64,000 bases of DNA, taken from Tetracentron sinense (lineage: Eukaryota; Streptophyta; Magnoliopsida; Trochodendrales; Trochodendraceae). The first letter of the stretch is position 1. Each line of letters begins with the position of its first letter. The notes beneath the pieces are model-generated. The model was not told the DNA's origin, made no database searches, and saw nothing but the letters and a program-made list of their open reading frames with translations. The stretch lies in contig CM026554.1 of assembly GCA_015143295.1 (NCBI GenBank), forward strand, positions 32,935,531 through 32,999,530, written 5' to 3'. This document shows, piece by piece, positions 23,831 to 40,639 of this stretch. Made by a program: the position numbers and the translations under genes.

Positions 23831-23924
23831 TCATACACAGCCATTGGATGCCAACTCAACCTCTTTTAATCTGTCTTGGGACGGGCGATGCAATGCAAAT
23901 AGCAGGTCAGAGTAATAATTTTTT

Positions 23925-25355
23925 GGCAGGTGATCCTCTCCAGTTATAACCGGCTCTGGCAGAACCGGTTATAACGAGCGTCCGACGCGTGTCCCAAACT
24001 TTGGGCGCCAAACTCTCCGTTAATCTTCTCCCGTTAGCGCTCCATTTCAAGCCCCGTCTTCTCATTTTCAAAAAAAACCCAACTTCCCCAAATCACCCAA
24101 CTCTCCCAAATCTGTGTGTAACCAAAAGTCCAAGAGAAGAAGCCGCAAGCCTTATTCCAACGATTCGGGTAGCCGGTGCCGACGAGATTTCGGATTCCGG
24201 CGAGCATCAGTTCCTACTGGTGAAGGCCCCTCTATTTTACCTTCATTTGCTTTGAATCGAAGGCTCTCTCCAACTAATGCTCTCTGCAACTGATTTACCC
24301 AACTCTTGTCGAGAACCAACCCTTATTCCGGCCATTTTTGGGTAACCAGCGCCTACAGGTGAAGATCCCTCTGTTTCACCCTCCGACTGTCTTCTTCATC
24401 AATATTTATCTCTGTTTCAGGTAATATTTATGGATGAACATATTTATGAAAAACTTCTTATATATTTTGGAAGAAGCCTAATGATCTTTTAAAACCCTTT
24501 AAGGGTTTATATCGTTTCTGCTGTTGCTTGTTACGGGATTTCTATCGTTTCCCTGACTGTCTTCTTCTTCCATTGCGTGTTAATCTTGCTTAAAAGAGAT
24601 ATTAAATGAATGTTTGATATCTCACTAGGCTTGGAACTCGACCAATGAGTCCAGTTCTCTTTCTAGGATGCGTAGCTTTGCCATGAGGATATTCCCAAAT
24701 TCAGGGCTGTATGAGCATGGAAAGACATATGGGTAGTCTGTATAGATTCCAAAAAACCTTCTTCAATGAGGAGCTCTAGGGTGAAGCTTACATGGGCTGC
24801 ATGTGTGTAGTGTGTGTGTGTGTGAGTTTGCATGTGGTGTGTTTGCTTGGGTGGTGTGAGTATTCCCTTGTCTTTGCCTTCCGTCATTGCCTTGTGGTAT
24901 GATTGAGTTTACCAAAAAAACCAGAACACCTTTTAGGGTGAGAGTTTAGTCCCACATCGGGTATCTACCCGAGCATGTTGTCCCATATAAGTTCCTTGGC
25001 GCCTCAAACGGTTGGTACACGTTTTGAGGAGCTCTAGGGTGAAGCTTACATGGGCTGCATGTGGTGTGTGTGTGAGTTTGCATGTGGTGTGTGTGTGTGT
25101 GTTTGCTTGGGTGGTGTGAGTATTCCCTTGTCTTTGCCTTCAGTCATTGCCCTGTGGTATGATTGAGTTTACCAAAAAAAAAACAAGATAACAAGGATTC
25201 TGTAGTTACTATTAGGCTGAAATCCACTGAAGCCCTCTTAATACTTGTTTAACTGTTCCCATGTTTGAACCCCAATTAACAGAACCTATCTTATCCCCCA
25301 CCCTAAGCCATCCAATCAATATCTTATACCAATCGTTAAATGAATTGGCAAGAGG
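23925..25355 (+). repeat. Left terminal inverted repeat of the MULE
   Basis: 1,431 bp, matching 39,083-40,514 in reverse. The outer 400 bp is GC-richer than the surroundings with many CG steps (CGTCCGACGCGTGTCCC), as for a promoter or 5' exon. Further in are two direct copies of a block about 150 bp long (about 24,765-24,918 and 25,025-25,178), each beginning GAGGAGCTCTAGGGTGAAGC and ending GTTTACC plus an A-run. The match to the other arm stops at GGCAAGAGG (25,347-25,355). Confidence 0.93.
24950..24990 (+). promoter_or_regulatory. USE-like box and TATA in the left TIR
   Basis: TCCCACATCG (24,950-24,959), identical to the core of the plant snRNA upstream sequence element, is followed 26 bp later by TATAA (24,986). 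Plant Pol III snRNA promoters use a spacing of about this size. The expected transcript start falls near a hairpin, CCTCAAACG with CGTTTTGAGG. A mirror copy lies in the right TIR at about 39,452-39,492. No known small RNA gene is recognisable downstream, so this is a pattern match only. Confidence 0.35.
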
Positions 25356-25470
25356 TAAAATGAACAATCATGATCAAGAGATCCTGATAATTCCATTAAC
25401 ACATTAATTTTTTTATTTGGGGTATATTAGCTAATTTTATATTGATAACTGATGTCTTGTTAACCAACAT
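25356..25470. other. Short spacer inside the MULE
   Basis: Unique sequence between the left TIR and the LINE fragment. Nothing recognised. Confidence 0.4.
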
Positions 25471-25845
25471 GTATCTTTTTTTTTTTGGTCGATCAACAAG
25501 CAACAAGAATATATAAATAAGGACGACCAGAAGTACAGATACATGAAAGCAAGAGAAGCAAAGAGTTTACAAGTATATAAACTCAAGAACCACCCCACCT
25601 ATGTGACCCCCTAACCCAACTTCCCCAGGCTTCTAGAAGTCAATCCAGAACCCCCTTAAGCTCCTCTCTTGCATAGTGGAGCCTCGCCCATTCCAAAACA
25701 ACCAGCCGGATACAAGCACAAATGTGAGATGAGGGCAAAGAAGTATCCTCAAAGACTCTAAGGTTTCTCTCTTTCCATATCATTCATGATATGGCTCCCG
25801 GGAGGACTGACCAATTAGCCGCTCGAGCACCCATACCACTGAAAA
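25471..25845 (-). mobile_element. LINE 3' fragment inside the MULE
   Basis: Read on the minus strand it ends in TTGTTGATCGACC plus poly(A). Coding traces upstream include a reading like SVLPGAISWMIWKERN, the conserved 3' part of plant L1 elements, also seen in the LINE at 19 kb. It is strongly 5'-truncated, and the target duplication is not clear. Confidence 0.65.
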
Positions 25846-26654
25846 ATGACCAATATGATAAAAAGTTATGAAAGGAAGAGGGAAAGACCTAGTCCACTCC
25901 TATGTGGGAAATGAAATGTCCCCAAATACCATAACAGTGTTTTTAGACACCCATCATGATAAAAAGTTATAAAAAGCTATGGACCCTTATACACCCATCT
26001 AAACTCCCTCTTATCTCTCTTTTTTAGTTTTTTTTTCTCTCTCTCTCTAAAATCATCCCCACTACAATTTTCCTTTCAATCCAAACAGTGTTTTTAAAGT
26101 ATCTAATATTGTGTATTTATATAGAAATGACCCAATTCAAATGAGTAGTGATGTGTTTGTGACTTGGCCTCCAAGCTACTGTATCTGGGATGGAATCCAA
26201 CATTGAGCTTCATTGCTTGTGCAACGACCTATAGCTTGAACATGTATTATGCATAGCACTGTACTTTCTATTTAGAGAGTGTGTGAAAAAAAACATCTCA
26301 AATCAAATAATAGTAATTGACATGTTTTTGGTCATTGGTTCTCCCAGTGTTTCACTTTCCACTCTAGTTCTCCCTCTATGTGAATGTTGTCCAATTAAGA
26401 AGAGAAGAGATTTGAATATAGGGATGATACTTATATTTTCTTTGAATGCATGAAAGGATCTTGGTGTAGAAGTTCAGAGCTTTATTAGGAAATGCTATAT
26501 CCTGGGTTTTATCAATCATATCTCACCACTGAGTAGAATTTGATTCCTTAGTTCTTATATTTTATTTTTATTACCTGTTCTTGAATTTTTTAATCTTGTT
26601 CTAAATGTTTTAACATGCTTTTCTTTGTTCTTTACATGCCTCTTTAGTGTGGAT

Positions 26655-29544
26655 ATGGATATCGATAAGGAGGTTCGAACGGCACGGATGTTATCATTTG
26701 ATATAGAAGAGAGTGGGGAAAAATCAAAATCTCTTGGGGAAGATGATAGTGAGGGTCATATTGGCAGTGGATGTGAAGCAATTGAAGATCAATCAAAGAG
26801 CATTGATACACTGAATCCCAAACTTGGAATGGAGTTTCAAACCACTGACAGCGCATATGACTTTTATAATGAATATGCTAGAATAATTGGTTTCAGCCTT
26901 AGAAAGGAGTGGGTAAACAAAAATAAGTTTGGTGCGGTGAAGAGTAGGAAGTTTTGTTGTTCGAGAGAAGGTAGTAAAAAAGAGGATAAACGGATTGTGA
27001 AACAACACTGTGACAATACTAGAGTCAATTGCAAGGCAGAAATGGTTGTTTCATTACAATTAAACGGTAAATATTATGTTTCAAAGTTTGAGCCAACTCA
27101 CAACCATCATTGTACACCAAAGAAAGCCTACATGTGCAGGTCACGAAGATCAATTACTGTTGCTCAGGCTATTCAAACTGATATAGCAGAGAGTGTTGGT
27201 ATAGCACCAAAGGCAGCATATGACTTGATTAGTGCACAAGTTGGAGGACAGGAGAATGTTGGTTTTCTTCCTGTGGACTATAGAAATTATCTACGTTCAA
27301 AGCGGATGAGATCCATAGAGAGGGGAGATGCAGGGGGCATATTACAATATTTGCAGAAGATGTCAGTGGAGGACTTTGGTTCTTTTTATGCCATACAAGT
27401 TGATCTTGAAGATCAAATAACAAACATCTTTTGGGCGGATTCAGAAATGGTGATGGACTACGAGGCATTTGGGGACGTAGTTTGTTTTGACACAACATAC
27501 AGGACAAACAATTATGATCGGCCATTTGCACCATTCGTAGGAGTTAATCATCATAAACAAACTATTTTATTTGGTGCAGCTTTAATGTATGATGAAACTA
27601 TTGAGTCCTTTGAGTGGGTGTTTAAGACCTTCCTAGATGCAATGTCGGACAAGAAGCCCAAGACAATCCTCACCGACCAAGACAAGGCAATGTCCAATGC
27701 AATATCTTCAGTGATGCCTACTACTTATCATCGCATATGTGTATGGCATATGTATCAGAATGCTGCAAAACATCTTGGTTATGTATTTAGTGCGTCAGAA
27801 ACTTTTAATACGGATTTCAGTAGATGCATTTATGATTATGACGATGAAGCAGACTTTCTTGATGCTTGGGAACTTATGCTAGATAAGTATGATCTTAGAG
27901 AGAATGCATGGCTACAACAAATATTCAGTGAAAGAGAAAAGTGGGCTTTAGTTTATGGAAGAAATACATTTTGTGCAGATATGAAAAGCACACAACGGAG
28001 TGAGGGTATGAACAGTGTTTTGCGAAAATACTTGCATCGTAGCTATGATTTGTTACGGTTTTTTTCACAATTTGAAAGATTGGTGCGCGATAGACGGAAG
28101 GCAGAATCAATTGCTGATTTTAACATGACACAAAGTGAACCAAATTTGATAATGGAGGTTCCACTGTTGATTAGTTCAAAGGAAAAGTACACACCGGAGA
28201 TTTTTAAACTCTTTCAAGCAGAATATTGCTTGGGAATGAGTTGTATAGCAAAGTTACATGGCAACCTTGGATCTATTATCACATACACAGTTATATGGGT
28301 TAAGAAAAATCGAGAATACACGGTTACATTTGACTCTTTAGATGACACGGTGTCTTGTTCGTGTAAGAAATTCGAGTTCGCCGGAATTTTATGTGGGCAT
28401 GCATTGAGAGTCATTGATATACGGGGTTTACAGGAGGTCCCAGGTAGATATATTTTACAGAGATGGAGAAAAGACGCAAAAGGTCAAATGGTACGTAGCA
28501 CTCTCTACCAACTGTAGCTTCGGAAGGGGATATGGCATTGTCACATCGTTATAGACATTTGATGCATCTGAGCATGAAAGTGAACACGAGGGCTGCAGAA
28601 AATGAACACGCATATGGGGTTGCTGTGAGATGGATGGAATATGCGTGGAAACAAGTGGAAGAAACATTCCAAAAAACAACTCAATTATCGAAACCTCTAA
28701 TAATTGAGTCACATGAGACAATCGTCAACACTTGTGCGCAAGAACATGGAAGCATTCAACCTTACATGGAACTAGATAATGTTACTAGGCTAACTCAAGT
28801 CAAGGGGGTTAAGCAAAGGGAGCGAGCTTGTAAGGGAAGGCCTAGAATTAAGAATTGTTTGGAGAAAAGAGGAAAAACAAGGCGTTCTACAAAGACACCA
28901 TTCTCCACCTTACCTAATTCATCTGGTCCCATAGGGCACTCAAACCCTTTCACTCCACCTATTCAAGTTCCACCTAATCAAGTTATGTTAGTCCAATATA
29001 TATGTTGCCTTTCATTTAGTTTATTGATTGTTTAAGTCATTTAGTAACTTTAAAGACATTACATAAATAATTTCTGTGTTAAATAGGGATTCACATATCA
29101 ACAAGTCCAACCAATTGGTGTGGATCCATATATGTATCAGCAATCCCATAGTCATCAGATGCTTCAACTCATGTTTCAACAATCCCAATTCAATCCATGC
29201 ATGTATCAACTCTCTCAAGAATCCATCTTTAACACATCTCAGATGATTCAGGTAAATCTTAATGCCTTAAAGCCCTATTTTGCGTTTCGTAATATTTTGG
29301 TTTGTTAAAAATGCATTTTATACAGGAATCACAATTTCCCATCAGACAACAACAGTCTTTTGTCGGTAGTACCTCACCGGGAGAGACCATTTCGAATGTT
29401 ATGGGTGAGTTATATGTGAAATGATTTGGTTGTTGAGTATTGTATGACCTAGATATTTGTTTGATACTGATCTCAGAAATATCCCATTTTATAGGAAGTA
29501 TACAAAAGGATGCAGGGAACGAACATGAATCGGTTGCCGAGTAA
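26655..29544 (+). CDS. FAR1/FHY3-type MULE transposase
   Basis: The chosen start, ATG at 26,655 (MDIDKEV), comes just after a splice acceptor (CTCTTTAG at 26,647), so a non-coding first exon probably lies upstream. The first open stretch runs 620 codons. The FAR1-type zinc-binding DNA-binding domain is at about residues 70-155 (ends FEPTHNHH). The MULE DDE domain has D279 (CFDTTYRTN), D341 (ILTDQDKAM) and E450 (QRSEGMNS), with CVWHMYQNAAKHL between D341 and E450. The SWIM finger is C568-x-C570, then C580-x-H582. Near 28,490-28,500 the frame shifts: the downstream frame, HSLPTVASEGDMALSHRYRHL onward, continues the homology, with no room for a normal intron. Further exons fit GT-AG: 29,087-29,251, 29,326-29,404 and 29,495-29,544 (stop), coding a Gln/Pro-rich tail. 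The protein would bind the TIRs and cut and join DNA in the nucleus. A domesticated FAR1-related gene is less likely, since it sits inside the element. Confidence 0.92.
28482..28535 (+). other. Apparent frame shift in the transposase gene
   Basis: The frame holding the DDE and SWIM domains ends at TAG (28,515-28,517), 30 codons after the conserved RYILQRWRKDAK. The next frame is open from 28,499 and reads typical FAR1-family sequence (SHRYRHLMHL). The shift equals one missing base. GTACGT at 28,491 looks like a donor, but the nearest AG (28,516) would leave a 27-bp intron and the wrong frame. Confidence 0.65.
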
Positions 29545-31033
29545 TCCTGAACTGCGAGTGGTAATGATTTAAATATCATTTTCATGAATAAATAGTGTCT
29601 AGTCAGACCATTTATTTCCTTTATTACTCTTCTGTGAAGTGTTTACTTTTAAACATCATGTTCATTAAAACCATTTATTTGAACAAATTTTATAGTTTGC
29701 TTGCCAGATGCAGTCATGTTAGTTAGGGACTCATAAAAGTAGAATCACCTAAGTCAAACCCAAAGCTAAATTGATGCCTCTTTTTTCGTTCTTTTCACCC
29801 AAAGAGAAAAAGTTTAAAGGAAAAATATCTTATTTCAGCCATTTTATGGAAGTATAATATGGATTTCATGGATTACTTATTTCAGTTTACTTGATGTTTC
29901 TGCATTTGCTTATGATCGATTTCCATCTCAAGAATTCAAACTGTCCAATGCCAATGTGGCTCACTGATTTGTTCTGTCATGAGCTGCTAAGCTTGAATGG
30001 GCATATCATATTGTACACCTTGATATGTGAATTTATGTCTCAATCACTATTTTAGGGACTTTAGCTGTCATTCTACTTTATTCTAACCACCTATAACTTG
30101 TAACTGCAGATGAATAAGAAGTTGCGACCGTTGAAAGCACCAAAGAAGTTGCAATGGTCGAAAGCACCGAGGGTCGTGGCATGCCTTTTATGGAATATTG
30201 TTTTGATGATCTTCACTTGCAGCACCACCTAGTTTAGATGACTTTTATGGAATTTAATCCATTATGTTGGTTGTTTTGTAAACTCATGACCTTTTTATTA
30301 CTACCGAGGTAGCAATTTATATGGCAGTTGATCAAATCCATTATGTTGGTTGTTTAGGTAGCACTTTAGATGGCAGCTAGTTTGCCATTCTTCTTATCGA
30401 GTTATTGGTGTTCTTAATGGCTTTTGTTATATGATTATGTGGATTTTATGGTATGTTCATGATGAACTGAAGACATTTCAATGTCATTTCCATATGAAAA
30501 CATCTGGATTATCCCAGCTATTCAGTCTATTCCAATCTTTGTTTTGTTTTTTAGATGATGGTTTTTGTTGAGAAGGGATATTCAGAGAAACTACTCTGTT
30601 TAGCTCATGAACAATTCTGGACTATTAAATCAGTTAATTTTGCCTTACATGGTAGTATGCGTGTTTGCTAATATTGTTAGACATATAGTTATGACAATTC
30701 ACATAAATGCCTAAATTCTGTAGGTAGCTACTGTCATCCACTTGTTGGATTTTATAAGGTTTCCTTTGGATCTACCCACATTCGCATGTGGGGTGAAACC
30801 TGATTTCACTTTGAAGGTCTCCTTGGTTAAAGATCTAGTTGCTTTGATTTGTGGATTTCTTTCTTGATTATTTGGGGACTTTTGAACCATCCAAACGAGT
30901 TACATTCATTTATTGCTTAAAAACTAAAAAATTAAAAAAAAATTAATTATTGTGCTGAGACCAACTTCAAATTGTGTTGAGTATTGGCTACCTAGAAATG
31001 GTCCTTTTTTTACTTGATTTTTAATCTCAAAAG
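29545..31033. other. 3' flank of the transposase gene
   Basis: AT-rich with no ORF of interest. An acceptor-like AACTGCAG at about 30,109 precedes a purine-rich stretch (ATGAATAAGAAGTTGCGACC), which could be a spliced 3' UTR exon. Otherwise nothing is recognised. Confidence 0.35.
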
Positions 31034-32200
31034 CCGAATAAACCAAGTACAGACCACCTATTTGGCCAACATCCATACCGATCTATCGTTTGTTTTATTG
31101 TGATAGATCAGTATAGGATACCGATCTATCGCAATAAAAGGAACGATCTCCAATCCAGAATTGGGAGAAATAGCCAAGTACAGGCCACCTTCCAGGCCAA
31201 TATCCATACCGATCTATCGTTTGTTTTATTGCGATAGATCAGTATAGGATACCGATCTATCGCGATAAAACCAACGATCTCCAATCCAGAATTGGGAGAA
31301 ATAGCCAAGCACAGGCCACATTCCAGGCTAATATCCATACCGATCTATCGTTTGTTTTATTGCGATAGATCAGTATAGGATACCGATCTATCGCGATAAA
31401 ACCAACGATCTCCAATCCAGAATTGGGAGAAATAGCCAAGCACAGGCCACCTTCCAGGCCAATATCCATACCGATCTATCGTTTGTTTTATTGCGATAGA
31501 TCAGTATAGGATACCAATCTATCGCGATAAAACCAACGATCTCCAATCCAGAATTGGGAGAAATTGCCAAGCACAGGCCACCTTCCAGGCCAATATCCAT
31601 ACCGATCTATCGTTTGTTTTATTGCGATAAATCAGTATAGGATACCGATCTATCGCGATAAAACCAACGATCTCCAATCCAGAATTGGGAGAAATAGTCA
31701 AGCACAGGCCACCTTCCAGGCCAATATCCATACCGATCTATCGTTTGTTTTATTGCGATAGATCTCCAATCCAGAATTGGGAGAAATAGTCAAGCACAGG
31801 CCACCTTCCAGGCCAATATCCATACCGATCTATCGTTTGTTTTATTGCGATAGATCAGTTTAGGATACCGATCTATCGCGATAAAACCAACAATCTCCAA
31901 TCCAGAATTGGGAGAAATAGCCAAGCACAGGCCACCTTCCAGGCCAATATCCATACCAATCTATCGTTTGTTTTATTGCGATAGATCAGTATAGGATACC
32001 GATCTATCGCGATAAAACCAACGATCTCCAATCCAGAATTGGGAGAAATAGCCAAGTACAGGCCACCTTCCAGGCCAATATCCATACCGATCTATCGTTT
32101 GTTTTATTGCGATAGATAAAACCAACGATCTTCAATCCACAATTAGGAGAAATAAGCCAAGTAACTGCACCGATCTATCATTGTTTGTTTTATTGCGTAA
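31034..32200. repeat. 131-bp tandem array between the convergent MULE genes
   Basis: About eight and a half units. The landmark TCCATACCGATCTATCG recurs every 131 bp from about 31,072, except that one copy near 31,725-31,818 is 38 bp short. Edge units at both ends are more diverged. Each unit holds perfect dyads: GATCTATCG with CGATAGATC, and GCGATAGATC with GATCTATCGC 13 bp apart. The period is not a multiple of three, so the 70-codon ORFs that repeat across it are by-products and not genes. Confidence 0.97.
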
Positions 32201-32682
32201 ATGACTATACTAGATATTTGCAACCCAAAAATGGTTCTATTACAATTGATAGATGTAATGTGCTACAGAAGAGAACCACTCTCTTAAAGTAAATTATCTT
32301 AATTGGTTTACTTATCATTTGTAACATTGTACATTCCTGTTAGTTGAAGATTGGATAAAGGGTCATTTCAACTAGTAGTACACAAAATTCACATTGAGGG
32401 TGAACCTGCACCAAGTAACCATACTTAATAAACCAAGTCCAAGATGGTAACAAAAATCCAAGCCACGTGAATTGAAATTTATGGGGGAATGAAAACCACA
32501 CTTTTACAGACAATATAACACTATAAGAACCAAGAAATCAACTACATCCCAACTGAAATGGGTAGATGGTACCAAAAAATACATCAACTTTGTATACTTC
32601 TGCATCTATCCCTGATGTGATAAAAATTAGTAATGTCTACTACATCAACTTTGCATTTCTTCCATTCATCTACAGTCCTGAA
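32201..32682. other. Spacer after the protease stop codon
   Basis: Unique, AT-rich. It should contain the 3' UTR and poly(A) site of the minus-strand protease gene. No feature stands out. Confidence 0.35.
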
Positions 32683-35600
32683 TTACAGCAGTGCAACACC
32701 GGTCATTAGCTCGAAAGCCATTCTCTTTCTGAAATGCACAATGTCAGCCTGAAAAAACATTTGACAGAAATAAGTATTGCCCTTACAAGTGTGCTTACAC
32801 ATGTATGCTTTAACCAAAAAAAAAAAGTGTGCTCACACATGTATGCTTTAAAGGTATTTGTGCTTACCTGTTTGAAAGCGATAGGTAGGTCGGAACACAG
32901 GAAGTCTATGTACTTCAAAACAAATACCCCGCAATTGCGACTAATAACATACAAAAAGAGTGAATATATTTATAATGACAATGAATTTGTTTAGTAGGGT
33001 ATTTAGTACAACTTACACATTTTGCTGCTTTGGTACATAAGTAATCTCCTTCATTACCCATTCACCACCTTCCAAGGCACACTTATCCCCGGTCATATGG
33101 AATAGTCCAAGGATGCACTCTTTTAACACTTGCACTTCAGTTGCATATCTCTCCTCCAAATTTTTGTAGAGCGAGTCGAAGAGTAATATCTCCCTCTTGG
33201 GAGGTTCCGGAACAACCAAAGCCCAGTGGCTTTCATGGTAGAAAGGGAGATATACCCTTTCACACTGCCACATTGTTGGCAATCCAGACTGTGGGCCGGC
33301 AGCAATATGAAGGCCTTTATGAATCTTCCCACTAATACCCCTTTGTAGGTCTTCATCTTGCACTTTCTTATATTCTTGAAAGTCCAAGATCTGACGAGCT
33401 AGAAAATCCTATCACCATAAAAATAGAAAACCTCTTAGATATAGAATGAAAGAATTAAATTCAATAAATGTAGTTAATTGTACCATGAACCACAGTTTTC
33501 CGAAAGAACACTCCTGGGTGTACACATCTGGATGGCCCGCATGTCGAAGGGTCAACAACTCCATATACACATTAATATGCTGAGTCATACAGTGCTAATT
33601 ATTACAATCTCTTAAAATATATTATATTGAATCATACATTGCTAAGTTAAAACTCAATACCTCTGAAGTGACTAATCGTGTTGGCGTCGCCAAATCATAG
33701 AGCAATTCGGGTGTCATGGCAATGTTGTAAACAAGTATTGGGCTATGAAGTAAAAAAAAAAAGAAAAACTTCAGATTAAACTAATAACTAAGAAAACATT
33801 AAATAAAACTAACAACCTGAGTAGCTACCTTGTCTTATCGCCTTCTTTGTTAAGGTATTGGGCTAGTCTCTTTCCTTCTTCTTTACTTATTCGTCTCATT
33901 GGTTTTATTATACATATGGATGGCACCGCTCGCTTCCTCTTCTTAGTAACCAAGAAGGGTGAGCGAAGGAAACGAGACTTTACACTCAGTCTCTGCAGCA
34001 TCTTTGGCTGCTGAAACATAAACATTATGTACTTCAAGTGTTAACGAAATAAAAAAAGTTAAAGGTACAAGACTTGCACGAGTTAGAGAATACCTGTTGG
34101 GACCCTTGTGTAGTAATGTTCTGCATGGGGTCACTGTCAACCATCATCTCTGACCCATCATAGATATCGAGATCCTCTTGTTGATTAACCTCCTGTCGTT
34201 TGGTAATCCTAAAATATTAATCACATATGCGCATGCAATAGATAAATGGTGATTTGGTTTAAATAGAGATTATAGAGTACCTTCATACAACTCTCTTTCT
34301 GGATGTGCCTATCATCCTTCATTTCTCTTAACTCTGTCTTGAACTGAAGAAATTGTGATGATAAATTATCAACTCTAATTGACAATTGGCCCACCTGCTC
34401 CTTTAACTCTCCTTTAAGTTCACCAATTTGCTGGTCAATATGTTGCAGTCTTTCAAACATAGAAGCAAAATCAAGTGCCTACATTTAACATTATGGTTAT
34501 TTGTGCATTATGCAATAGACGCTAGCCAATACAATATACACATCGAAAATAAAGAATACCACTTACATGTTTTGTTCTACTCTTTTTATTATGACCCGTT
34601 GAGGGTGAACCTTCCTCAAACCCAACTTCATCCTCCTCATCCCCAACTTCCTCCTCGTCTTCCTCTTCCTCCTCTTCATCCTCTTCCTCCTCTTCGTCCT
34701 CTTCTTGGGCAGCTGTCATTGAGGTGGAAGGCACCCTAACAAGGACATCCTTCACCACTTGTTCTTCTTTTTCCAAATCGGTCAAGACTAGCTCTTTTTT
34801 CAACTTAAGCTACAAATAAATTTTCTTGCTCAATTCATAACTATGAATAATTGACTAATAATAGGTAATAGGCCTTAGATGCATACCCTTTTTTTGTTGA
34901 ATACATGTTTTGCTAGAAACTTGTATCCCCTATATTTGATGTTGTTCCACTTGAGTATGCGTGGAAAGATCGGCAATGGGGAACCATCATTGTTTATACT
35001 TCTACAACAAAGTGTAGACAGGAGGGGGATGTGTTCAAATGCCCAAATCTATCACATAAAAACATTGGTGTAGTTAATAAATGCAAATAAAAATAAGGAA
35101 AATCAAATAATATAATAGCACAAAATTAAATAAAACACGCGTACCTGGAATGCAATAACACATCCATATATATTATACTTTGGTTTTCTCTGGTCCAAAG
35201 CAGCCAATAATCCATCATTCATTAGCTTGAAGGCCACACTTCCCCAAGGATATTTATTAAACAACTCGAAGTCATCTACCAAACACAAATAGTCTGTGTT
35301 TACCCCGGTATGAGTCTCTTTGGCTCTCAAAAATGACTCAACGAAAAGCACAGATGCCAACTTTATGGCATCAGTATGGTCCTCACATGCCAAGAATTGA
35401 TTGAGAAGGTGCTCCTTTTTAATTAGCTTAATGTCGTTGAATAGCCTTGTCATCAAAGACCCAGTTGGAGCTCCAACTTTGATGGCAGGAGCACGTACTG
35501 GTGAGCAGCTTAGGCCAAGGATGAGGGTGAAGTCCAGCTCTATAAACCTCAACCGTTTCCCTTTAATCTCAAACTCTAAGTCACCAATGTGATGCTCGAG

Positions 35601-35849
35601 GAGATGTTGGATTGCCTGGCCACACGTAGGAATCTTTGGCATATCAAACAAATGGCCAAAGCAGCTCTCCATCCAAAGCTGCTTTCTCTCGGGATGGGCT
35701 TCCAGGTTCTCCTTGATTTGGAACCAAATATTTTGCATGCATCTCGCGGTTGGTTGTCCCTTTACTTCTTTACCCTTTTTTATTTGGGAGTCCGTTTTAT
35801 CTATGCTATGATGTGCCCTTTTCCTTTTGCTAATACTTTTCTTAGGCAT
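32683..35849 (-). CDS. DUF1985-Ulp1 (C48) cysteine protease of the MULE
   Basis: Minus strand, 11 exons: 35,849-35,145; 35,048-34,887; 34,809-34,567; 34,478-34,281; 34,192-34,094; 34,010-33,829; 33,742-33,661; 33,579-33,484; 33,408-33,017; 32,940-32,868; 32,748-32,683. All junctions are GT-AG and phases agree, giving 2,298 bp (765 residues). ATG follows an acceptor (TTTTGCAG), so a 5' non-coding exon is likely. Domains: basic N-terminus (MPKKSISKRKRAHHS), DUF1985-like region about residues 50-290 (LDFTLILGLSC, IWAFEHIPLL), an acidic Asp/Glu run, a coiled coil (FERLQHIDQQIGELKGEL), then the peptidase with His in ESHWALVV, Asp in LLFDSLYKN, Gln in VPKQQN and Cys in NCGVF. Family members cleave SUMO or SUMO-like tags; the plant MULE versions have no proven role. 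The triad and frame are intact. No intron-free or broken alternative fits as well. Confidence 0.9.
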
Positions 35850-37035
35850 TTTGAGGCTGCAAAAGGTAATAACATTAATAAGTAACGAGACAACCAAACA
35901 AGATAGATAACATAGACATGCACATAAGTTTTATATGGTAAAAGAAAATATTAAGTCATGATAAAGATTTGACCATGCTACAACACCCATTAAAGTGTTC
36001 ACACCATAAGAAGGTAAGTCAGTTGGCAACTTGTGGACAAGAATATCTAGGTTTACATAACAAGACACTGAAACACAAAACCAAGTACACATACATGAGC
36101 AAACGTGAGAGCTCTCCAAAATTTAAGAAAAACCAACCAATGCAACTTTCTCCAACCAACATATAAATATACAGAGCAGTCGTCAGATTGATTGAGAGAA
36201 CATTATAGCAATGGAAGAGAATATAAATTTTTTTTTTGGGTATATGAAAAAGCATGAGTAAAAAATTCATGGAAACACAAATATGCATGATCCCTAAAAT
36301 CCAAATGGAAACACATTCACATATCTATGAAATTTGAAATCAAGTGGGCTACTTGTGTCAGGGTGATAGAGGTCATTACTTGGGCAACCACAGGATATTA
36401 AGTCTGAACCATTATCTAAGAGTTTCCTGTTTCTATGAATATCCAAGATTCAACACAAATGAACTTAGTTTTAGGTCGTTACATTCTTCGTTTTCTATGT
36501 AATAAAAGCAAGATATGATTTCCATACATCATCAAGGACCCATCTCTAGACTTTCATCAGATGATAGTCTCTATCTCACAAAATAAGAAAAAGGGTAGGT
36601 GTACTTTGAATTTTTTTTAGAGAGACGTGTGACATCTCTATCGGTCTTAAGTTAAAGAGCCCTTGACGCAAAGGGCTTCCAAAGAGTCATGTTCCAAGTA
36701 GTGTTGTTGGTAACCACAAAATAAGTTCCAACTCAGAACTCACCACTCGTCAACCCTATCATAAATTCCTCCCATTCTATGGACAAATTCGCGTTCTCAG
36801 AACTTCATTGGTTTCCCCGTGATCCCTTAAAGGTTGAAAATCAAACAAAACAGAGGACTAGACTGGTAATGTCTTCAGTGTAATTGCCGTTACTGGAATC
36901 CATGACTATTTCACTACTGCAAGTTAACAGCAAAAGATTGTAATGACAACTTTTTTCAACTCTAGATACCCTGTTAGATATAAGACTGAGAAGAAACATA
37001 CAATTTTAAACCAAATTTTTTTTGGGAAATAGTTA
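35850..37035. other. MULE interior upstream of the protease gene
   Basis: No convincing coding sequence. Short ORFs match nothing known. If the protease transcript starts in or near the right TIR, this is part of its first intron. Confidence 0.35.
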
Positions 37036-37086
37036 ACGGACCCATGGATCCCATTTGCTAACCTAAGGCATCCACCTATTGGTGGA

Positions 37087-37121
<35 letters not shown>

Positions 37122-37184
37122 TAAAATGCTCACCACACCTATTGGTGGATGCCTTAGGTTAGCAAATGTGATCCATGGGTCCGC
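37036..37184. mobile_element. Foldback MITE with a 31-base poly-C core
   Basis: Inverted arms of about 55 bp (ACGGACCCATGGATCCCATT at the left; complement at the right, ending GGGTCCGC) flank an uninterrupted run of 31 C (37,089-37,119). TTA on both sides (37,033-37,035 and 37,185-37,187) suggests a PIF/Harbinger-type 3-bp duplication. It is inserted in the MULE. Confidence 0.7.
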
Positions 37185-38381
37185 TTATCACTACTCATTT
37201 TTGTAAAACTAACTTCAATTCCTTCAATCTAATAAGGCTTAATTTCTCAATGGGTACTAGCAAAAGCAAAATGCAAGATAACAAATACATCTCACCACAC
37301 ATTCCGAGGTGCAACCATGTCTTCAATGATGAATCACTTCCAAAATTATCAAACTGTGACAAAGTCAAACCGGCATCTAATTCCCCGGATTTTTCTTAAT
37401 ATTTTCATTCCAAAACTCTCCCAAACTACGGTCAATCATGTAGAAGATCATATTAAAAAAAGGTAAACCATGCAACATTAACAGGATGCCTTTACATAGT
37501 ACTGTCACACAAATGATAAAATTAAAATTTAAAAATTCAGACATAGAACCAAAGAGAAGATACCTTAATACAAATGTTTCCTTCCTTTAATTATGCGACT
37601 TCCAAAATTAAATTGGAAACAGCAGAGATTACTCTGAGAGATGAAAAATACATGAATATGGGAGTTGTCATCATATTATACGTATGCCCACAAAAGTAAC
37701 CGTGCAAAGAAGAACGTCAAGAACAGTCATTGTATTCCGGCAAGCACATTAAATTGCGGTAATTGAATCTTGATACAGGTGGCACGCATCTCTCTCATCT
37801 TATGCTCTCATCCTAGTCTAAACCCTATTTTATAGATGTAGATGTAATTGAAGGAATGAAACCGTTGCAACTATTTGAATCAATGCACCCTTTTGTACAC
37901 TCCAATCGGTGCATCTTTTCTATGCACCATTTCATATTCTAAACGTTAGAGGAAGAAGAGGCGTAGCCCTCTTACTTGGGTTGTGATGTTTGAAAAGATA
38001 ATGTTGATATCCTCTGAAAAATCTCCTAAAAATCCTCTCAATAAAGTAGTTGCATCCCCATTCAAAACCCACCAAAAACTGAACAGTTGCATCCCTACCC
38101 GAAACACTAAGAAAATCAAAGGCTGTTGAAATAAAAAGGGTTGTAACCCTTGAACGGACACAACCGCCACTACCAACTTAATTCTTTAAATCATAACCAA
38201 TAACAAAAGGACACGTGGAATAAATCCCTGAAATCCCTCCCTAACTGCCACGTCGACCTCCCCGTCCTTGGCTTTCTTGTAGTATAATTTGAGATGGTTT
38301 GGGTTATCAATTGCAGATATTTACCACCAGTGTAAAAAAAAAAAACTAATTGCCCTTATGGTAGATTTACTAATACTGGCA
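37185..38381. other. MULE interior, possibly captured non-coding DNA
   Basis: No recognisable protein. Around 38,205-38,280 it is promoter-like on the minus strand (CCACGTGTCC, GTCGACGTGGCA), so a captured host promoter is possible but unproven. Confidence 0.3.
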
Positions 38382-39082
38382 TTATAGGTGTGATATTCTT
38401 TCCCAAAATGTAATTATATTACGCATAGTGTGCCTATGATTGCATTTCCAAAGGTTATCATTACTTGGGATTGGTCTAGTAGTGTAGGAAGCATTGAGAG
38501 TGGTGCTATTTATAGTGCAGTAAAATGCACTGGATTGCCCAAAGATCAGAATTGAGGGGATGTTGTTAATGGTGCAACCGTAGTATAAAGTAAGGTTCTG
38601 AACAGTGGAAGCATAATTGAAAATAGTGAAATTAAGGGCGCCATTAGCAAAGCGAGCGGGACATCTATTGTTCTAGAAATCCTCTCTAGCAACTTTGAGA
38701 ATCCGGGACTCGGATGAGATTCCCAGAACCCGGTAGCTTTCTAACATAATTTGTATCTCCGGGATATCATCTTGGCAATCCAGCTCAAACCTCGGATGCC
38801 AGCAATAATCGGGTCGGTCCCTTCCCCAGAAAGGGTACATGATGCTTCCGAGGCTTCCACACTCAAATGGCCGACTGCAGTTTAGGAATCGCTCGTTGGC
38901 GTCGCACAACGATATCAGAACAAGGACCAAGACAAGGAAGATTATCAAGATGAAGAGAAGGGGAGATGGGAAGAGCTTGGGATGCATTTTGGTGTAATCT
39001 TTCAAGAGGCAAATTGTGAGATGGAGATGAATGACTTGATTTTTCTCATGATAAAACAATAAGCTTTGACGAAGTAAGATGG
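38382..39082 (-). pseudogene. Captured fragment of an LRK10-like receptor kinase gene (GUB_WAK domain)
   Basis: On the minus strand an ATG at 38,987 opens a signal-peptide-like start (MHPKLF, then LLFILIIFLVLVLVLISL). The cysteine-rich extracellular domain follows: LNCSRPFECGSLGSIMYPFW, PDYCWHPRFELDC, then YRVLGISSESRILKVARED. A TAG at codon 105 interrupts it, but the same frame continues with CPARFANGALNFTIFNYAS, LTLYYGC and FYCTINSTTLNASYTT down to about 38,420, all typical of the GUB_WAK_bind/WAK_assoc region. No transmembrane or kinase part is present. The fragment, with about 95 bp of 5' UTR, begins exactly at the inner edge of the right TIR, as in Pack-MULE captures. It is a host gene piece and not a working receptor. 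Confidence 0.85.
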
Positions 39083-40514
39083 CCTCTTGCCAATTCATTT
39101 AACAATTGGTATAAGATATTGATTGGATGGCTTAGGGTGGGGGATAAGATGGGTTCTATTAATTGGGGTTCAAACATGGGAACAGTTAAACAAGTATTAA
39201 GAGGGCTTCAGTGGATTTCAGCCTAATAGTAACTACAGAATCCTTGTTATCTTGTTTTTTTTTTGGTAAACTCAATCATACCACGGGGCAATGACTGAAG
39301 GCAAAGACAAGGGAATACTCACACCACCCAAGCAAACACACACACACACACCACATGCAAACTCACACACACACCACATGCAGCCCATGTAAGCTTCACC
39401 CTAGAGCTCCTCAAAACGTGTACCAACCGTTTGAGGCGCCAAGGAACTTATATGGGACAACATGCTCGGGTAGATACCCGATGTGGGACTAAACTCTCAC
39501 CCTAAAAGGTGTTCTGGTTTTTTTGGTAAACTCAATCATACCAAAAGGCAATGACGGAAGGCAAAGACAAGGGAATACTCACACCACCCAAGCAAACACA
39601 CCACATGCAAACTCACACACACACACACCACACACATGCAGTCCATGTAAGCTTCACCCTAGAGCTCCTCATTGAAGAAGGTTTTTTGGAATCTATACAG
39701 ACTACCCATATGTCTTTCCATGCTCATACAGCCCTGAATTTGGGAATATCCTCATGGCAAAGCTACGCATCCTAGAAAGAGAACTGGACTCATTGGTCGA
39801 GTTCCAAGCCTAGAGAGATATCAAACATTCATTTAATATCTCTTTTAAGCAAGATTAACACGCAATGGAAGAAGAAGACAGTCAGGGAAACGATAGAAAT
39901 CCCGTAACAAGCAACAGCAGAAACGATATAAACCCTTAAAGGGTTTTAAAAGATCATTAGGCTTCTTCCAAAATATATAAGAAGTTTTTCATAAATATGT
40001 TCATCCATAAATATTACCTGAAACGGAGATAAAAATTGATGAAGAAGACAGTCGGAGGGTGAAACAGAGGGATCTTCACCTGTAGGCGCTGGTTACCCAA
40101 AAATGGCCGGAATAAGGGTTGGTTCTCGACAAGAGTTGGGTAAATCAGTTGCAGAGAGCATTAGTTGGAGAGAGCCTTCGATTCAAAGCAAATGAAGGTA
40201 AAATAGAGGGGCCTTCACCAGTAGGAACTGATGCTCGCCGGAATCCGAAATCTCGTCGGCACCGGCTACCCGAATAGTTGGAATAAGGCTTGCGGCTTCT
40301 TCTCTTGGACTTTTGGTTACACACAAATTTGGGAGAGTTGGGTGATTTGGGGAAGTTGGGTTTTTTTTTGAAAATGAGAAGACGGGGCTTGAAACGGAGC
40401 GCTAACGGGAGAAGATTAACGGAGAGTTTGGCGCCCAAAGTTTGGGACACGCGTCGGACGCTCGTTATAACCAGTTCTGCCAGGGCCGGTTATAACTGGA
40501 GAGGATCACTTGCC
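39083..40514 (-). repeat. Right terminal inverted repeat of the MULE
   Basis: 1,432 bp, mirror of 23,925-25,355. It has the same internal pair of direct repeats, the USE-like box, and the GC-rich outer part. Differences seen are few (for example CCGGCCCTGGCAGAACTGG against CCGGCTCTGGCAGAACCGG at the tip, and short changes in A-runs). Confidence 0.93.
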
Positions 40515-40639
40515 TAATTTTTTACTTTTACTCAGTGTTGAAGTAGATTTTTTTAATGTAAAAATAGTATAATATGTTTACTATTCTTAGTATAATATAC
40601 TATATATGTTGTTGTGTTTTAATTTCAACGCAGTACTTA

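Follow-up and report, generated by a model that had tools for sequence, protein, structure and literature searches.

A Mutator-like element (MULE) of 16,590 bp in the genome of Tetracentron sinense carries, between terminal inverted repeats (TIRs) 1.43 kb long, a FAR1-type transposase gene, a gene that joins a DUF1985 domain to an Ulp1-type protease domain (Peptidase_C48, here C48), and a tandem array of a short motif placed where the 3′ ends of the two genes face each other. It occupies positions 23925-40514 of the window (the whole 64-kb stretch of DNA that was analysed, free of N and located at C4:32935531-32999530 in the 1.16-Gb genome), and both of its ends are exact. Ulp1-bearing Jittery-like MULEs are already known; what is added here is DUF1985 together with a motif array in a FAR1-type MULE with long TIRs. 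The first-pass annotation mentions neither the motif array nor DUF1985 nor the captured host-gene fragment; the array and DUF1985 hint at a particular function of the protease. It is tentatively proposed, at rather less than an even chance, that the array and the DUF1985 protein might form an anti-silencing pair. This pair is proposed to work in the way of the VANC proteins of Arabidopsis, which is a statement about mode of action and not about membership of the VANDAL elements. The features of the element are collected in Table 1.

Table 1. Features of the element and their positions in the window (TSD, target site duplication; ORF, open reading frame).
Feature	Position	Strand	Basis
DUF1985-Ulp1 protease gene, 11 exons, 770 amino acids, open	32683..35849	-	Gene model, Pfam, SENP1 alignment
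Protease exon 3, acidic repeat	34567..34809	-	Six copies, differing in length
131-bp tandem array, about 8-9 units	31043..32163	+	Top-scoring tandem array of the window
Transposase main frame, 620 amino acids to stop, FAR1+MULE+SWIM	26655..28514	+	Pfam; 98-99% to four open-frame copies
Transposase C-terminal part, shifted frame	28499..29035	+	Alignment with six copies without the insertion
TSD, left copy, TAATTTTTT	23916..23924	.	9/9 match to 40515-40523
TSD, right copy, TAATTTTTT	40515..40523	.	9/9 match to 23916-23924
Left TIR, 1,431 bp, begins GGCAGGTGATCCTCTCCAGTTATAACCGG	23925..25355	+	98.8% against right arm
Right TIR, 1,432 bp	39083..40514	-	98.8% against left arm
Captured GUB_WAK_bind receptor-like gene fragment, 651 bp	38390..39040	-	Pfam 3.2e-15, ORF 38676-39098

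The protease gene, the motif array and a possible anti-silencing pair

The protease gene was modelled from the frames and splice sites conserved among sibling copies. The model has no stops and its 10 introns all have GT/AG ends, in agreement with the first-pass annotation, which had called the protease complete. In the spliced product Pfam recognizes DUF1985 (PF09331, 5.4e-16) and Peptidase_C48 (1.2e-21), while a weak similarity to PMD (3.8e-5) falls under the cut-off of that family. From the N- to the C-terminus the protein comprises a basic N-terminus, DUF1985, an acidic repeat, a segment that looks coiled-coil-like by eye, a KKRKR motif and the C48 domain. The acidic repeat, encoded by exon 3, measures 201-261 bp in six copies, and its changes in length are always multiples of three. 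In the alignment of the C48 domain to human SENP1 the His, Asp, Gln and Cys that are taken here to be catalytic are kept, as H655, D672, Q722 and C728. Immediately before this Cys (32934-32936) the window copy has Asn, and the sibling copies C12 and C17 have Asp.

In the consensus unit of the 131-bp array the 9-base motif GATCTATCG recurs as a trio, its middle member reversed, and the distances from start to start are 21 and 22 bp. All 20 exact copies of the motif in the window lie within the array, the TIRs being free of it, and only 1 of 5000 base-shuffled units contained any 9-mer three times. Among the matches listed, multi-unit arrays occur at 11 loci, all of them copies of the family or their remnants (C1, C4, C8, C12, two in C14, C17, C13 and three in C6); weaker matches to the array core alone occur at other genomic places. 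The trio pattern itself is found at 38 genomic sites, 36 of which lie in the family, against none for the control. In three diverged arrays the motif positions have changed less than the other positions, the substitution rates being 0.028 against 0.123 in C6, 0.049 against 0.170 in C14 and 0.066 against 0.126 in a second C6 copy. In young copies both kinds of position are nearly alike, with the order reversed in C12 (0.029 against 0.023). The array has an observed/expected CpG ratio of 1.06, compared with 0.60-0.61 in the flanks and 0.08-0.66 across all the remaining parts of the element. Arrays of some kind, coding acidic repeats counted, were present at 20 of 20 protease loci and at 12 of 23 transposase-only loci (no protease listed; at most 4.4 copies). 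The transposase-only loci were dropped as an array control, since a reach of 1.5 kb past the match misses an array placed as it is here.

A published counterpart of this arrangement comes from the VANDAL MULEs of Arabidopsis. VANC proteins of these elements contain DUF1985 and DUF287, and VANC21 binds the 9-base motif YAGTATTAY while VANC6 binds 8-base motifs (PMC5735166). Their targets are tandem repeats in the non-coding DNA of their own element, which then loses methylation (PMC5735166, PMC10398659). The element described here resembles VANDAL21 with VANC21, and VANDAL6 with VANC6, in that a MULE encodes a DUF1985 protein and holds an array of short motifs in its own non-coding DNA; both VANC and the present protein also contain a variable repeat region (PMC5735166, PMC10398659). 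It is this triple likeness (a DUF1985 gene, a stretch of the protein that varies in repeats and an array of motifs in the same element) that leads to the proposal of an anti-silencing pair. On the proposed mechanism, the N-terminal part of the protein (DUF1985 with its neighbouring segments) would be recruited to the 131-bp array of its own element by recognizing the trios of GATCTATCG, whose members follow one another at intervals of some two turns of the helix. Once there, the protein would use its C-terminal Ulp1 domain to free the local silencing proteins of SUMO or a comparable tag, and the loss of the tag would open the element so that transposase and protease could be expressed. The tentativeness of the pair extends equally to this whole chain; binding, SUMO cleavage and demethylation are all inferred here, binding and hypomethylation having been demonstrated for VANC. 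The more specific form of the idea, in which a self-contained cassette uses a DUF1985-Ulp1 protein to read trios on one face of the helix and a SUMO-protease activity to undo silencing, is doubtful.

Several observations weigh against this proposal. DUF287, present in VANC, is not among the Pfam matches of the protein up to an E-value of 0.5, and GATCTATCG differs from the published VANC motifs. For the proteins encoded by the Arabidopsis KIU genes, which also carry an Ulp1 domain, SUMO is considered an improbable substrate (PMC6117577). An AlphaFold2 model of DUF1985 built from 16 sequences gave no usable fold, its mean pLDDT being 47.9 and its pTM 0.39. The array is reduced to a trace in the copy C4b and absent from C16 among the matches listed, and that of C13 gives no sign of motif conservation (0.127 at motif positions, 0.137 at others). 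In the diverged copies a plain circular-shift test found motif positions as little changed in 19 of 131 shifts, which is not significant, and in old arrays CpG positions change faster than others (0.222 against 0.111). Pairs formed by the protease of the window copy with those of the other youngest copies have a ratio of nonsynonymous to synonymous substitution rates (dN/dS) of 0.73-1.52, based on few changes and without visible constraint. Finally, a second array family exists, with a 153-bp unit, at 34 loci (among them L100, C1:62610450-62611250, and C14:450502). No listed DUF1985 or transposase match lies within 50 kb of these loci, one transposase being found at 76 kb, and the core may therefore be read by another protein.

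The 153-bp and 131-bp arrays have in common only a core of 88 bp, which holds the trio with identical 21/22 spacing and aligns locally with a score of 52, where 500 shuffles reached no more than 21. Should the cassette exist in its more specific form, this second array, otherwise unrelated, might live on it parasitically. Its existence also favours a rival explanation that keeps a substantial minority share of the probability, namely that the array is where the transposase or a factor of the host binds (as at an enhancer or at an internal site of transposition) and that Ulp1 acts away from it, perhaps desumoylating the transposase or host proteins of repair or silencing. The transposase has FAR1 DNA-binding and SWIM domains of its own, the core occurs at the 34 array loci without a listed DUF1985 gene within 50 kb, and the C8 copy retains several trios with no protease among the matches listed there. 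On the other hand, GATCTATCG is missing from the rest of the window, including the TIRs, where sites for the transposase would be expected, and the ends of the TIRs bear a different palindrome.

It is unlikely, as a further alternative, that the array is a neutral minisatellite inherited from an ancestor, its motif being an accident of the founder sequence. Homogenized arrays do repeat whatever their founder contained, and both the plain shift test and the faster decay of CpG sites in old copies fit such an origin. When CpG positions were left out, the shift test gave 7 of 131 (4 of 131 for the core), a borderline and exploratory result, as this version was chosen after the plain test. Against a neutral origin stand the rarity of three like-spaced 9-mers per unit in the shuffles and the recurrence of the same trio and spacing in the 153-bp array with other flanks, although the two cores may share descent.

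Selection on the protease and its association with the transposase

The protease is very probably a selected resident gene of the family, a judgement that implies no ranking against the transposase. Between the copy C17 and the older C6, the ratio of nonsynonymous to synonymous differences (pN/pS) is 0.23 in C48, 0.45 in DUF1985 and 0.81 in the linker; between C17 and C4b the corresponding values are 0.42, 0.42 and 0.69. Over the whole gene, Fisher tests give P values of 5.8e-6 (window copy and C6), 6.4e-7 (C17 and C6) and 2.6e-10 (window copy and C4b). Since the older copies carry stops, which push the ratio towards 1, the constraint on the active line is probably stronger than these values indicate. 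Across all the youngest protease copies dN/dS ranges from 0.32 to 1.52, again with few changes.

Seven copies of the protease were read and two are open, those of the window and of C17 (776 amino acids). Of the five broken copies, C12 has one stop, C14 lacks 10 bp of exon 1, C1 combines one stop with a break at exon 3, and C6 and C4b carry 5 and 20 stops, respectively. No protease is present in the C8 copy among the matches listed in the DUF1985 and C48 searches. This high proportion of broken genes, together with the lack of constraint between the window copy and its youngest relatives, would suit a host-captured passenger without any role for the element, and capture of gene fragments is indeed frequent in MULEs, this family carrying a GUB_WAK fragment. 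Such a passenger is nevertheless improbable: DUF1985 and C48 hold pN/pS values of 0.23-0.45 against older copies, exon 3 keeps its frame through all its length changes, and the open protease of C17 adjoins an open transposase. Furthermore, the opposite-strand layout of the two genes is retained in C6, C13 and C16 at 84-90% identity, and DUF1985 exons occur at no fewer than 254 distinct loci.

The transposase of the window copy matches MULE (PF10551, 2.2e-33), FAR1 (PF03101, 3.5e-21) and SWIM (PF04434, 8.4e-6). Its frame is interrupted at about 28,501-28,505 by a private insertion of 2 bp that is absent from all six siblings aligned, so that the final quarter sits in another frame and a truncated protein may result. 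For this reason the element would depend on a sibling transposase, and its earlier description as near-complete does not hold in the functional sense. Open frames of 788-792 amino acids beginning at the same ATG are found in four siblings (C1, C8, C17 and C14), of which one, C17, also has an open protease. The dN/dS of the transposase is 0.58-0.70 against the C16 pseudogene and 0.18-0.28 against 12 more distant transposase loci.

The association between the two genes was followed through the genome with 76 transposase matches, merged to 71 loci by dropping five second pieces. A DUF1985 exon lies within 50 kb of 8 of the 11 loci whose transposase is at least 82% identical to that of the window (within 20 kb in 6 of the 11), the exceptions among the matches listed being C8:39.6, C8:43.8 and C5. 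Below 82% identity, the matches listed place a DUF1985 exon within 50 kb of only 2 of 60 loci. Chance co-location is about 0.013 per locus with the 150 DUF1985 matches scored; enlarging the set to at least 254 distinct DUF1985 loci leaves the result as it is. The protease thus appears to belong to the transposase subfamily at or above 82% identity and to have been gained or lost near its base. In grapevine, too, the distribution of the protease among ULP-bearing MULEs is patchy (PMC2528002), in agreement with the present family.

Many of the other DUF1985 matches evidently form one family: of the 150 scored (from 964 candidates), 141 have 47-60% identity, and loci within this family are not independent of one another. 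In 20 loci of about 50% identity (L049-L068), the AFQ exon end is shared with the window gene wherever the sequence extends that far. At least 14 of these 20 (L051-L059, L063 and L065-L068) have a 32-bp array of 6.4-9.5 copies directly before the start of the gene, which speaks in favour of the proposed pair. A coupling of this family to FAR1-type transposases was also considered and was dropped, given the 2 of 60 loci just mentioned.

Boundaries, age and copies of the element

The element is almost certainly a MULE of the make-up described. Its transposase contains the MULE domain and its flanks a 9-bp duplication, with a chance of about 1e-5 for a match of 9/9 at one fixed place and local composition; the insertion site is AT-rich. 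The two arms of the TIR differ by 16 mismatches and one gap. The first-pass annotation had read the same limits, the perfect duplication, the long TIRs and the union of a FAR1-type transposase with an Ulp1-type protease in one bounded MULE, and all of these stand. The arm-to-arm divergence it called for, measured over the full TIRs, is 0.0113. With rates assumed here to be 1.3e-8 to 6.5e-9 substitutions per site per year, this corresponds to 0.43-0.87 million years, an estimate to be read with the caution that the arms may have differed already at insertion or undergone later conversion. The insertion is recent, and the earlier view of a recently active family is upheld. Near the extremities of the TIRs (23943-23975 and its mirror) there is a near-palindrome, GTTATAACCGG...CCGGTTATAAC, followed by GACGCGTGTCCC. 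The near-palindrome is a possible site for the transposase; the FAR1 site is presumably CACGCGC.

Copies were searched for with the outer 29 bases of the TIR, leaving two positions open and allowing up to 2 mismatches. This genome search, which had been recommended with the outer TIR, yielded 65 sites (34 forward, 31 reverse), against none for the reversed pattern used as control. Eleven copies with both ends could be compared for their 9-bp flanks. These match at 9/9 in five: the window copy (TAATTTTTT), C1 (CTTTATAAA, 52.7 kb), C13 (TTAGTATTA, 46 kb), C16 (AATTTCAAA, 14.4 kb) and a copy at C3:58 Mb (TTTGAAATA, 4.8 kb). Three more match at 8/9 (C14:10.0 Mb, C14:28.8 Mb and C19), and the rest at 7/9 (C10, of low complexity), 5/9 (C7) and 1/9 (C17). 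The family inserts with 9-bp duplications, and in most copies checked the outer sequences are accompanied by matching partners and duplications.

Five two-ended copies (C4, C1, C17, C13 and C16) hold both genes or clear parts of them. The presence of transposase and protease in one bounded copy, to which the first-pass annotation had attached particular value, is therefore true but not unusual in this genome. In the search of the genome no C48 exon was found in the C16 copy. This copy (C16:27684890-27699282) has a second TIR end of the same direction internally, at 27687324. In the C1 copy (C1:39793089-39845757) the DUF1985 and C48 exons lie about 32 kb apart, which points to insertions after the arrival of the element. 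The C8 copy (C8:39612038-39622472) has an open transposase and part of the array, and its left end was not found in the end-motif search.

One sibling, at C14:25995772-26012485 (L008, L069), was left out of the flank count because its right end is anomalous: the left flank and TIR of this same copy recur there as a direct repeat with indels, due either to local duplication or to an assembly error. This case lends some colour to the suspicion that the window interval is itself an assembly artefact fusing two elements, an idea that is scarcely credible for a copy whose TSD and arms match without any N and whose relatives C1, C13 and C16 likewise hold both genes between matching 9-bp duplications.

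The GUB_WAK fragment adjoins the right TIR on its interior side and matches the ectodomain of receptor-like genes. It is 98-99% identical in four other copies, 92% identical to C499:136365 over query positions 3-601, and 82-95% identical to five places in a cluster at C4:42.89-42.96 Mb (three of them 82-85% over 595-627 bases). Given its close similarity in the four copies, the capture probably predates the spread of the family. The fragment lies at the protease end in C4 and C14, and also in C8 (91 bases, the protease being gone). It stands at the transposase end in C1 and C12, and at both ends in C17, where the transposase end has the full fragment and the other 223 bases. The interior thus seems to have been flipped relative to the arm, an outcome to be expected if the long inverted arms recombined. 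Pack-MULEs likewise hold fragments of host genes between their TIRs (PMC13317346); unlike them, the present element also encodes a transposase and a protease, and the captured fragment is a side feature.

Relation to known elements and significance

Grapevine and melon are known to harbour ULP-bearing Jittery-like MULEs (Benjak, 2008, PMC2528002), which bears out the earlier remark that MULEs with Ulp1 domains are known. Among them is CUMULE of melon (van Leeuwen, 2007, cited in PMC2528002 and PMC5299730). In those reported, the ULP gene may lie downstream of the transposase in opposite orientation, as in the element studied here (PMC2528002). The present element differs in its 1.43-kb TIRs, its complete 11-exon ULP frame and the evidence of selection. 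Its DUF1985 and motif array have no mention for the grapevine and melon elements in the available text of PMC2528002. The KI-MULEs of Arabidopsis, with their KIU genes (Kaonashi; PMC2528002, PMC6117577, PMC13317346), are similar in having a C48 gene in reverse orientation to the transposase and many copies. They are non-TIR elements with a mudrA gene, whereas the window element has long TIRs and a FAR1-type transposase and is for that reason not filed as a KI-MULE. VANDAL elements have TIRs that are absent or short and degenerate (PMC6446971), again in contrast with the long TIRs found here. The transposase follows the domain order of Jittery/FAR1-type elements, FAR1 being N-terminal and SWIM C-terminal. 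Group 36, which comprises this type, is described with an N-terminal FAR1, a C-terminal SWIM or CCHC, and TIRs of 39-292 bp or none (PMC6446971). The TIRs of the window element fall outside this range, although TIR length is variable in MULEs, and the element is accordingly called FAR1-type only.

A 2026 review treats KIUs as VANC genes that bear an Ulp1 domain (PMC13317346). A word search of the available text found neither ULP nor KIU in PMC5735166, and neither KIU nor protease in PMC10398659. Within the open literature, subscription papers being outside the scope, no link of DUF1985 or of anti-silencing arrays to FAR1/Jittery-type MULEs was found.

What Ulp1 domains do for plant transposons is stated to be unknown (PMC13317346). 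The family provides a concrete proposal in which the gene, the 9-bp site and the array are all named, the catalytic residues are identified, and naturally occurring copies differ in whether their protease is open. If the proposal is true, sequence-specific anti-silencing would extend from the VANDALs to another branch of MULEs and the protease would gain a job. In the more specific and doubtful form of the idea, plant MULEs in general would have a gene for VANC-type anti-silencing as their second gene, its effector being Ulp1, and the VANDALs would not be special in this respect.

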